From Flavobacterium sp. (lineage in GTDB: Bacteria; Bacteroidota; Bacteroidia; Flavobacteriales; Flavobacteriaceae): DNA of 64,000 nucleotides. The translations under genes and the position numbers were made by a program. Positions within the stretch are counted from its first letter, which is position 1. Every line of letters starts with the position of its first letter. The notes beneath the pieces were generated by a model. It was not told where the DNA came from and did not search any database. It saw nothing but the letters and a program-made list of their open reading frames with translations. The stretch spans positions 372,001 to 436,000 of the forward strand of contig NZ_JBCNKR010000006.1 in NCBI RefSeq assembly GCF_039595935.1, read 5' to 3'. This document shows positions 4,370 to 33,207 of the stretch, one piece after another.

Positions 4370-5407
4370 TTAAGGCGCCGGATCAGGAATTATTGCCTGA
4401 ACAGCATCGATTTCTGCCAAAATTTCTTTAGAAAGCACAACATCAATAGTATCGATGTTTTCTTCTAATTGCTCTAAAGTTGTTGCACCAATAATTGCAC
4501 TTGTCAAAAATGGCTGTTGCAATACAAATCCCATAGCAAGTTGTGTTAGCGTTAAACCATGTTTTTTGGCGATTTCCTGATACAATTTTGTTGCTTGCGT
4601 ACATTGTTCGCTATTGTAACGTTTGTATTGTGGAAAAAGATTAATTCTTGCTTTTGGGTGACTTTCCCCAGTTAAAAATTTCCCGGTTAAAACTCCAAAT
4701 GCTAAAGGTGAATATCCTAATAAACCAACGTTTTCGTATTTTGAAACTTCGGCAGAATTTACTTCAAACAAACGGTTCAATAAAGAATAAGGATTTTGAA
4801 CGGTTTTAATTCTTGGCAGATTGTTGTATTTGCTTTCTTCCAAAAGGCGCATCATTCCCCACGCATTTTCATTAGAAACACCAATATGTTTAATTTTCCC
4901 TTCTTTGATTAATCCGTCGAAAGTTTCTAATATCTCTCTGAAATTATCTTCCCAGGCATCATTGTGTCCGTGAAAAGCACGCTGTCCGAAATTATTAGTT
5001 TTTCTTTCCGGCCAGTGCATTTGATACAAATCGATATAATCTGTCTGAAGTCTTTTTAAACTATTTTCTAAAGCGTATTTAATACTTGCCGGAGAAAAAT
5101 CCAGTTTTTCACGCATGTATCCAAAACTCGGATTTGGACCGGCGATTTTAGATGCCAGAACCACTTTATCTCTATTTCCTGATTTTTTAAACCAGGTTCC
5201 AATAATTTTTTCTGTACTTCCGTAAGTTGCTTCACTCGCCGGAACTGAATACATTTCGGCTGTATCGAAGAAATTAACTCCTCTTTCCAGAGCGTAATCC
5301 ATTTGAGCATGTCCTTCAGCTTCGGTATTCTGCTGCCCGAAAGTCATTGTTCCAAGATTGATTTTACTAACTTTTATGTCGGTGTTGGGTAGTGTTGTGT
5401 ATTTCAT
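4370..5407 (-). CDS. tas: NADP(H)-dependent aldo/keto reductase, Tas type
   Basis: This 345-residue protein aligns end to end with my recollection of E. coli Tas (346 residues). Shared features are the N-terminal 'LGTMTFGQQN', 'SLKRLQTDYIDLYQMHWPER', 'IGVSNENAWG', 'QNPYSLLNR' and the C-terminal '...PDPAP'. The aldo/keto reductase tetrad is visible as Asp48, Tyr53, Lys87 and His131. The fold is a TIM barrel that binds NADPH, and the family reduces aldehydes and ketones. The physiological substrate is unknown. The gene stands alone, with a large palindromic repeat immediately upstream. Confidence 0.9.
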   Translation of the reverse strand: MKYTTLPNTDIKVSKINLGTMTFGQQNTEAEGHAQMDYALERGVNFFDTAEMYSVPASEATYGSTEKIIGTWFKKSGNRDKVVLASKIAGPNPSFGYMREKLDFSPASIKYALENSLKRLQTDYIDLYQMHWPERKTNNFGQRAFHGHNDAWEDNFREILETFDGLIKEGKIKHIGVSNENAWGMMRLLEESKYNNLPRIKTVQNPYSLLNRLFEVNSAEVSKYENVGLLGYSPLAFGVLTGKFLTGESHPKARINLFPQYKRYNSEQCTQATKLYQEIAKKHGLTLTQLAMGFVLQQPFLTSAIIGATTLEQLEENIDTIDVVLSKEILAEIDAVQAIIPDPAP

Positions 5408-5417
5408 TTTTCTCTTT

Positions 5418-5661
5418 AAGGTTCAAAGTTGCAAAGTGACAAAGGTACAAAGGGATTTTTCAAATTTAAATTTGACAAAGGTTAAAAAAAGTACAAGATT
5501 TTTTTCTCTCCTGCAAGGTTTCCAAAACCTTGTGGGTGTTTTTTTTTACAAAAAATAAACTTATACCTACAAGGTTTTGGAAACCTTGCAGGAAAACAAA
5601 AAGGCTCAAAAGTAAAACCTTTGAGCCTTTGTATCTTTGTCACTTTGCAACTTTGAACCTT
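5418..5661. repeat. nested inverted-repeat element (about 245 bp)
   Basis: Three palindromes are nested here. The outer 35-base arms (5418-5452 and 5627-5661) are reverse complements with one mismatch. The inner 28-base arms (5509-5536 and 5566-5593) have one mismatch, and each arm is itself palindromic (CAAGGTTT..AAACCTTG). A third hairpin, AGGCTCAAA / TTTGAGCCT, spans 5602-5628. The element fills the gap between the divergent tas promoter side and the 3' end of the OmpA lipoprotein gene, overlapping the latter's stop codon. There is no coding potential. Confidence 0.85.
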
Positions 5662-6604
5662 AGTTTATGCTATTAAGCATATCAGCAATTTCATCTAATC
5701 TTGGCGTTAAGATGATTTCGATTCTACGGTTTTTAGCTTTTCCTTCCGGAGTTGCGTTACTTGCCAAAGGAGAAAATTCACTTCTTCCTGCTGCCGTAAG
5801 TTTTTGTTTGTTGATTTTAGTATTTTCACTTAAAATAGCCACAATTGCAGTTGCTCTTTTTGTAGATAAATCCCAGTTGTTTGCAATTGGCCCAGAACCA
5901 GCATACGGATCATCATCAGTATGGCCTTCAATAAGAACTGAAAGATCTGGATTTTCACCTAATACTTTTCCAAGTTCTACAACCGCTTTTCTACCTTCTG
6001 TTCCTACAGCCCAGCTTCCTGAATTGAAAAGCAATTTATTTTCCATAGAAACATATACTTTTCCGTTTTTCTGTTCAACTGTTAAACCTTTGCCTTCAAA
6101 ACCATTTAAAGCTTTAGATAAAGTTTCTTTCAGCTTGCGCATTGATTCTTCTTTAGCAGCAATCATATCTTCAAGCTCTTTTAAACGATTTGCTGTTTTA
6201 TCCAAACGAGCCTGCTCATCGGCTAATTTTTTAGATTTTGCTTCTAATTGTGCCAATAAATCACGGTTTTTAGCCATGTTACTTTCTAATGCATCGTTGC
6301 TGTTTTTCTCTAAAGCATTATAAGAATCCTGCAAAACTTTGTATTTCTTTTGTTCTGCTGCTAAATCTGCTTTTTGTTTAGCCAGTTCGTCTTTTGTGTT
6401 TGCTAAATCTTTAGTCAGTTTATCACGATCTAATTCTAATTGATTTTTTGCTGTTTTTAAACTTTCGTTTTCGTCAGCAATTGAACGATTTTCTTTTTTT
6501 AGATCTGAATATTTTGTTTCCAGATCATTGTAAATCTTTTTGGATACGCATGAAGTTGCAGACAATGCTAAAACAACTAATCCAATGGAGGCTTTTTTAA
6601 TCAT
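5660..6604 (-). CDS. OmpA-family lipoprotein with coiled-coil stalk
   Basis: This is a 314-residue outer-membrane-associated protein. A lipoprotein signal ends at Cys19 (ATSC). Residues about 25-175 are a long Lys/Glu/Ala/Leu-rich coiled coil. Residues about 185-305 form an OmpA-like peptidoglycan-binding domain with 'EGHTDDDPY', 'NWDLSTKRA' and 'NRRIEI'. The layout suggests a lipid-anchored spacer that tethers the outer membrane to peptidoglycan, as in Pal-like proteins. The stop codon lies inside the right outer arm of the palindromic repeat at 5418-5661. Confidence 0.9.
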   Translation of the reverse strand: MIKKASIGLVVLALSATSCVSKKIYNDLETKYSDLKKENRSIADENESLKTAKNQLELDRDKLTKDLANTKDELAKQKADLAAEQKKYKVLQDSYNALEKNSNDALESNMAKNRDLLAQLEAKSKKLADEQARLDKTANRLKELEDMIAAKEESMRKLKETLSKALNGFEGKGLTVEQKNGKVYVSMENKLLFNSGSWAVGTEGRKAVVELGKVLGENPDLSVLIEGHTDDDPYAGSGPIANNWDLSTKRATAIVAILSENTKINKQKLTAAGRSEFSPLASNATPEGKAKNRRIEIILTPRLDEIADMLNSIN

Positions 6605-32802: not shown

Positions 32803-32930
32803 AAACTTGTTTTTTGTTTTTTTCGGATGCAAAGATTGCGAAATATATTCTGAAGATTTTGATGCGAATGCTAGTTTAAACTGGTTCTATTTTAATTCTT
32901 AATTCCGCAGAGATACACAACGTTTTTTAT

Positions 32931-33063
32931 TTAATTGCGTCCAGCTTTAGCTGGATGAAATTTATGATTGTCCTCAAAAGCGGCTTTAGCCAAACTATGT
33001 CTTTTGGCTAAAGCCAGATAAATTGACTTCTTATAACCTCCAGTTAAAGCTGGAGGCAATTGA
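32931..33063. repeat. nested palindromic intergenic element
   Basis: The outer arms (about 32931-32955 and 33037-33063) are imperfect reverse complements built on AATTGC..TCCAGCTTTA.CTGGA, and each arm is itself a small hairpin (CCAGCTTTAGCTGG). An inner stem pairs GGCTTTAGCCAAA (from 32982) with TTTGGCTAAAGCC (ending 33016). Like the 5418-5661 element, it is a hairpin within a hairpin with no coding content. Confidence 0.8.
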
Positions 33064-33207
33064 ATAACTTAAAAACTTTGCATCTCTGCGACTTTGCGAG
33101 ATTCAAAAAAACTAAAAACTTAGCGAATCTCTGCGCTTTTTCTTCGTGCAACTCTGCGAAATTGCCTGCGAATCTCCATGTAATAATAAAATCTCAATTC
33201 TATTGCT

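Follow-up and report, generated by a model that had tools for sequence, protein, structure and literature searches.

A nested intergenic palindrome in Flavobacterium that probably combines a REP doublet with a separate family of octamer arrays

The window, that is the whole stretch of DNA analysed, comprises 64,000 nucleotides of a Flavobacterium genome (C6:372001-436000 of genome G000, 5,492,557 bases). Within it, a 252-bp intergenic gap is wholly occupied by a nested palindrome, and both flanking genes lie on the minus strand. The upstream gene is presumed to encode an OmpA-family protein and the downstream gene an aldo/keto reductase, each family name being taken from the protein sequence; the same OmpA-family neighbour is found in 49 of the 50 loci examined. 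The features of the locus, in window coordinates, are as follows.

4370-5407, minus strand: presumed aldo/keto reductase gene, the transcriptionally downstream neighbour (ORF of 345 aa)
5417-5453, plus strand: left outer arm, an octamer array with its head toward the reductase start codon
5453-5500, minus strand: presumed promoter region of the reductase gene, which can be recognised in relatives (nine gaps aligned)
5510-5536 (C6:377510-377536), plus strand: left REP palindrome of the inner doublet, CCTGCAAGGTTTCCAAAACCTTGTGGG, with TGTGGG for TGTAGG
5566-5592 (C6:377566-377592), minus strand: right REP palindrome of the inner doublet, CCTACAAGGTTTTGGAAACCTTGCAGG
5601-5629, minus strand: terminator-like hairpin, GGCTCAAAGG..CTTTTGAGCC then a T-run (folded; in the gap of most relatives)
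5626-5662, minus strand: right outer arm, an octamer array with its head at the OmpA stop codon, CAAAGNNN on the OmpA sense strand
5660-6604, minus strand: presumed OmpA-family gene, the transcriptionally upstream neighbour (ORF of 314 aa)

Each outer arm (5417-5453 and 5626-5662) measures 37 nt, and the two are 97% complementary and 172 nt apart, which bears out the near-perfect pairing claimed in a first-pass annotation of this DNA but not the arm length of 35 nt given there. The inner arms contain two 27-nt palindromes that are mutually inverted and are reverse complements of each other with one mismatch, also as annotated. Two features are additional to that description: the right arm takes in the OmpA stop codon (5660-5662), and the terminator-like hairpin is interposed between inner pair and right arm. 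With one mismatch and a separation of up to 300 nt allowed, inverted repeats in the window reach 37 nt, against a maximum of 21 nt in 40 dinucleotide shuffles of the window. As RNA, the gap has a predicted fold of -121.2 kcal/mol (z -15.8), a stability reached by none of 200 shuffles. These comparisons confirm that the palindrome is real and beyond chance. A search of Rfam returned 48 matches at E <=1, mostly to microRNA hairpin models and none above the gathering score, and these are taken as chance. Scans of two half-windows (inverted repeats of at least 24 nt, at least 80% complementarity, arms up to 500 nt apart) list one further inverted repeat, at 32927-33067. This is a REP-doublet-like pair with 29-nt arms around CCAGCTTTAGCTGG and an additional stem within; similar palindromes occur at locus L006 and in a gap of genome G057.

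Searching the genome with the whole stretch returned 72 matches; besides the stretch's own site, nearly all of these are confined to one level, inner part or outer arm, and a few extend across adjoining portions of the two. As judged from these matches, the nested palindrome is two separate repeat families, one within the other. The first-pass annotation named a MITE-like element as one example. An alternative along these lines is that the entire stretch from 5417 to 5662 forms a single MITE whose terminal inverted repeats are the outer arms, and the arms are indeed inverted, near-perfect at this locus and dispersed through the genome. However, this is very improbable for three reasons: first, the inner and outer parts are dispersed separately, though a few matches span parts of both. 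Second, the terminator-like hairpin and the stretch upstream of the reductase gene are present in relatives that have other arms of this kind or none. Third, the loops of the arrays vary from 6 to 695 nt. Comparison of the orthologous gaps indicates that arms and content do not move as a unit: the arms swap type between species while the enclosed terminator-like hairpin stays. A MITE-like nature of the outer arms is unsupported because the arms do not move with their content, and the two families are considered separately below.

The inner palindrome is found at 27 sites in G000 (up to 3 mismatches), the reversed pattern at none, and in 2.0 Mb of this genome only one of 15 REP sites falls in a called gene. 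The same 2.0 Mb holds five inverted doublets, the two palindromes of each being separated by 23 to 43 nt. The element is thus a short, multicopy, extragenic palindrome that also forms inverted doublets with a spacer, as REPs do, and the inner pair is, by its sequence, an inverted REP doublet of the REPIN/BIME type (REPIN doublets are described in PMC3116915, as far as its available text goes). Direct reading of the sites places GTAG only within the stem (CTTGTAGG) and none before the hairpin, and because the GTAG tag before the hairpin is missing, the palindrome is not classed as a GTAG REP. A different dispersed palindrome, around AGACGCACTGC.GTGCGTCT, is intergenic in both G000 and G057 (gaps C6:220611, 301106 and 303453).

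G000 has several Y1 transposase genes, and each of three related ones has its own palindrome on both sides. For RAYT-A (C6:480010-480558), which lies outside the window and about 102 kb from the locus, this is the inner palindrome of the locus. The RAYT-like genes L032 (C6:2270918) and L035 (C6:2527107, below the Pfam cut-off) carry CTTTGTCAAAG..CTTTGACAAAG and CCCGACAGG..CCTGTCGGG, respectively, on both sides; given that each has its own flanking palindrome, there are at least three transposase-palindrome partnerships in G000. The RAYT-A protein is 183 aa long and its Pfam Y1_Tnp match is just over the cut-off (24.1 bits against 23), while the NCBIfam model for REP-associated transposases gives 44.2 bits, under its cut-off of 80. 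Residues H57, H59, Y118, S137 and S138, which make up the HxH, tyrosine and SS motifs, are invariant in 30 sequences. The predicted structure has a mean pLDDT of 91.6, and its first structural match is 4er8 (query-normalised TM-score 0.57), a REP-associated transposase with its REP hairpin. RAYT-A accordingly combines the HxH and tyrosine motifs, a predicted RAYT fold and, around its Y1/HUH gene, the palindrome of the doublet, the features expected of a RAYT. Elsewhere in G000, the Y1 transposase encoded by L030 (C6:450317-450658) is 146 aa long and has the motif YIKNQKQHH, and an inverted pair of CCCACGGTTTCAACCGTGGG adjoins the gene; the protein resembles subclass 1.2 of PMC6006769, a subclass without REP in the available portion of that paper.

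The association between RAYT-A and the palindrome extends beyond this genome. Among 199 genomes of the genus, 77 have any RAYT-A match and 28 (G000 included) have one of at least 58% identity over nearly the whole length; the palindrome lies on at least one side of all 28 loci and on both sides of 27, the minus-strand loci having been left unturned in this survey, which does not affect the both-side counts. In a second collection (genome_contigs), the closest relatives of RAYT-A are from Flavobacterium and up to 90% identical. The best 80 of 212 relatives there come from Flavobacterium plus Mesonia, Salegentibacter and Salinimicrobium, and, counting palindromes of at least 20 nt that contain CAAGGT or ACCTTG, 79 of these 80 have one on one side or more, 68 of them on both sides, some flanks stopping at a contig end; a Maribacter locus among the best 80 (L347) has none. 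The palindrome type changes with the transposase family, as the two members examined of the next family (L248 and L249, 49% identical) have CCTAACAGG..CCTGTTAGG flanks instead. The REP pattern itself is present in 109 of the 199 genus genomes, comprising 27 of the 28 with RAYT-A and 82 of the 171 without (Fisher p 5e-7, not corrected for ancestry, with G003 and G149, partial matches of 66 to 68% identity, counted as lacking RAYT-A). Some genomes without a RAYT-A ortholog are nevertheless rich in REPs (G102 with 72 forward matches, G008 with 71 and G057 with 16), and these are evidence against a strict link between RAYT-A and the REP.

Comparison with known systems places the inner level within an established class. 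As in the REPIN/BIME and RAYT systems described in the available parts of the literature cited here, there are extragenic inverted doublets, a Y1/HUH gene with the same flanks and a palindrome specific to the transposase family. In contrast to these systems, the inner palindrome has no GTAG before the hairpin and its stem is nearly perfect; GTAG REPs are one of the two types (GTAG and TIR) set out in the accessible text of PMC3733652. Of the RAYT classes in the available portion of PMC6006769, which include subclass 2.6, RAYT-A resembles subclass 2.1 in its motifs (NHFH, F at the usual place of W, Y[VI]HLNP and SS) and subclass 2.6 in its length and lineage; subclass 2.1 is described there as longer proteins without REPs, and subclass 2.6 as having atypical flanking structures. 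Two Flavobacterium genomes appear in a table of predicted REP candidates in PMC12306157, in whose main text, so far as available, no mention of a RAYT or transposase was found. No description of REPINs in Flavobacterium, or of the octamer arrays discussed below, was found in the open-licence literature searched, which does not prove that none exists. The inner level is a new member of the REPIN/RAYT class, the class itself being already established.

If RAYT-A acts like its counterparts in the REP/RAYT systems studied so far, it would recognise a folded single strand and spread the doublet (recognition of REPs by a transposase is treated in PMC8266576, as far as its available text goes). The two strands of each palindrome differ: the fold of one strand contains a G-T pair where that of its complement has an A-C mismatch, and this difference could let the enzyme discriminate between them. 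The age of the inner insertion was addressed with the orthologous gap, extracted from 49 of 50 loci: 29 of 30 from a gene search and 20 from stretches chosen for having both genes matching close together, the genes elsewhere being sometimes far apart or on different contigs. The palindrome, allowing up to 5 substitutions, is present in 8 of these 49 gaps (L062, L063, L064, L065, L067, L068, L082 and L084), and in L065, L068 and L082 a single copy is recognised. A close relative, L066, has an apparent decayed remnant of the doublet, and in the gaps of L077 and L079, for example, no trace of the palindrome was found; empty sites of the kind looked for in relatives are thus present. Given these filled, decayed and empty sites, the inner doublet is older than the separation of several species, unless it arrived multiple times. 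A REP copy may, before those species separated, have inserted downstream of the OmpA-family gene's terminator and upstream of the reductase promoter region. The suggestion of recent formation is unsupported for the inner pair because the pair is common to several related species and decayed in some, whereas the suggestion of a REP-like element is upheld at the inner level by the other copies, the cognate transposase and the doublet-free gaps in relatives. Separately, the same gap measures 650 to 890 nt in L082, L085, L086, L087 and L089, where additional sequence, related among these loci, resembles one or two small minus-strand genes.

The outer arms are of a different nature. Each is a four-octamer array, (C[A/T][A/G]AGNNN)4, with 10 sites in G000 when 3 mismatches are tolerated over 28 nt, the reversed pattern having none. 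In intergenic DNA, CWRAG recurs at a distance of 8 on four strands (29, 32, 44 and 48 times), and also at 16 and 24, with only 1, 2, 3 and 6 occurrences at 32; no period-8 signal of CWRAG was found in coding DNA. A scan of 2.0 Mb of G000 found 88 arrays of at least three units (reversed control 2), spanning exactly four units in 54 and three in 23; 86 of the 88 lie between genes and 2 inside called genes. Three free bases end each octamer, the last almost never C in 245 units, while the unit C[A/T][A/G]AG was fixed by the search pattern. Measured against home-made gene calls with unverified start codons, 56 of 86 arrays have their head no more than 25 nt from a gene end (38 at stops, 18 at starts); when the arrays were placed at random within the same gaps 2000 times, this number averaged 14.2 and never exceeded 26. 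Only 2 of 86 tails come as close, and in 71 of 86 arrays it is the head, not the tail, that is nearer the gene. A 33-base array pattern occurs in 19 of 395 genomes of the phylum (reversed control 0 throughout), namely in 16 of 24 genus members sampled, in one family member (6 matches) and in two more distant genomes (one match each).

Within gaps, arrays pair head-out 23 times, head-in 4 times and on the same strand 15 times, the pairs being partly non-independent as one gap contributes five; in 1.6 Mb, 18 of 48 arrays have a mate across their own gap. The A/T type agrees in 21 of the 23 head-out pairs. Beyond type, mates are closer than 95% of same-type arrays in 3 of 23 pairs and the mean fraction is 0.44, and on these figures arm-specific complementarity was rejected as a general rule; the present locus is the most extreme head-out pair in mate similarity. 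Active maintenance, which the first-pass annotation offered beside recent formation, is thus a possibility for the outer arms, favoured by the agreement in type but not by the usual lack of further likeness between mates. In this locus's gap in 49 species, both arms could be typed in 30 and the types agree in 27, disagreeing in L067, L082 and L083; in some species farther away, arms of this kind are missing. Turnover of types is also seen at gap C6:457983, where the two outer arrays are both T-type in G000, which has a further, A-type array inside on one side, and both A-type in G057 (14 of 29 gaps are comparable between these two genomes). Across such switches of type, the gap retains a terminator-like hairpin. 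On this evidence the outer arms are members of a separate abundant family that is mostly of four units, borders gaps with a fixed end geneward and usually has matching types. In three more distant loci with the same gap (L202, L214 and L218; 83 bp), an inverted octamer-like pair of ATAAAGTC fills much of the gap, and this other type raises the possibility that the bracketing habit exceeds the two types counted.

Several explanations of the arrays were considered. On the sense strand the arrays read CAAAG or CTAAG after stop codons and CTTTG or CTTAG before start codons, as would be expected if a pair at the two ends of one gene closed the mRNA into a panhandle. This idea was rejected and can be set aside almost entirely: in 1.6 Mb, none of 40 arrays has a mate at the other end of its gene, and the scores equal those of random gap ends. 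Use as Rho termination sites is improbable, for although C exceeds G on the complement strand (0.264 versus 0.151) and YC occurs in 211 of 245 octamers, this bias in composition is modest and 5' arrays would sit in the leader of their own gene's mRNA. The far part of the left outer arm contains, on the minus strand, a box resembling TAnnTTTG, the Bacteroidota -7 motif, and a similar box is found there in relatives. This would fit arrays that are parts of promoters, A-type arrays read geneward holding such boxes; that reading is nonetheless highly unlikely for two reasons: T-type arrays (CTTAG) have no TTTG, and 38 of the 56 gene-end arrays are at stop codons.

A more substantial, if still uncertain, possibility is that the arrays are selfish or slippage-born repeats with no host role, their position and polarity reflecting tolerance. 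Types turn over rapidly between species, the variable bases differ freely between mates and arrays are missing from some relatives, all of which this would explain; however, the four-unit length, the 71 of 86 heads pointing geneward and the matching types are unexpected from tolerance alone. An RNA role can be proposed only tentatively. The arrays may be transcribed as 3' and 5' untranslated ends, and upon read-through the two arms would close an interrupted hairpin of 5-bp blocks, enclosing terminator and promoter, that separates or protects the transcripts. Two observations speak against such a role: beyond type, mates are generally no more alike than unrelated arrays, and, in 2.0 Mb, terminator-like sites accompany 12 of 32 with an array versus 210 of 746 without, a difference that makes a tie to intrinsic terminators unconvincing. 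The analysis leans to the RNA role, with a selfish or slippage-born origin about as likely. The broader proposal, that the arrays are a distinct repeat class found mainly in part of Flavobacterium, acting as inverted-pair border marks, mostly fixed in length and polarity and set against start and stop codons, around a functional intergenic core, replaced pairwise between A and T type with core and position unchanged, and forming a long interrupted RNA hairpin, is possible but doubtful in its entirety.

Other families of short repeats offer partial parallels. The STRR heptanucleotide repeats of cyanobacteria are degenerate short units of 7 bases, and in the P6b stem of the Nostoc tRNA-Leu intron STRR-like heptamers build both strands of a hairpin; STRR repeats are not known to follow a gene-border rule, unlike the octamer arrays. 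The TAACTGA heptamer arrays described in the available text of PMC4679880 are likewise short and intergenic with a fixed orientation near start codons. Their unit is a fixed one of 7 bases, whereas that of the arrays here is degenerate and of 8, so that the outer arms share the fixed orientation near gene starts and lack the seven-base unit. The inverted pairing across gaps and the type switching seen here are not among the properties reported for TAACTGA arrays in that text.

In summary, the locus is probably a composite, in which a REPIN, whose cognate RAYT gene lies elsewhere in the genome, sits between the terminator-like hairpin of the OmpA-family gene and the presumed reductase promoter, and separate octamer arrays border the gap. 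The nesting itself need not be more than coincidence: in 2.0 Mb, arrays are also found in 2 of 8 gaps with REP sites (p 0.12), and the placement of REP doublets inside array pairs was rejected as a general rule. The inner half presents a very clean partnership between transposase and palindrome across Flavobacteriaceae, in a lineage outside the GTAG rule, and this makes it a good test case for how RAYT enzymes read hairpins. The outer half poses a testable question, namely what sets arrays, mostly of four degenerate octamers, against the gene ends that flank a gap, and what keeps the two alike in type.
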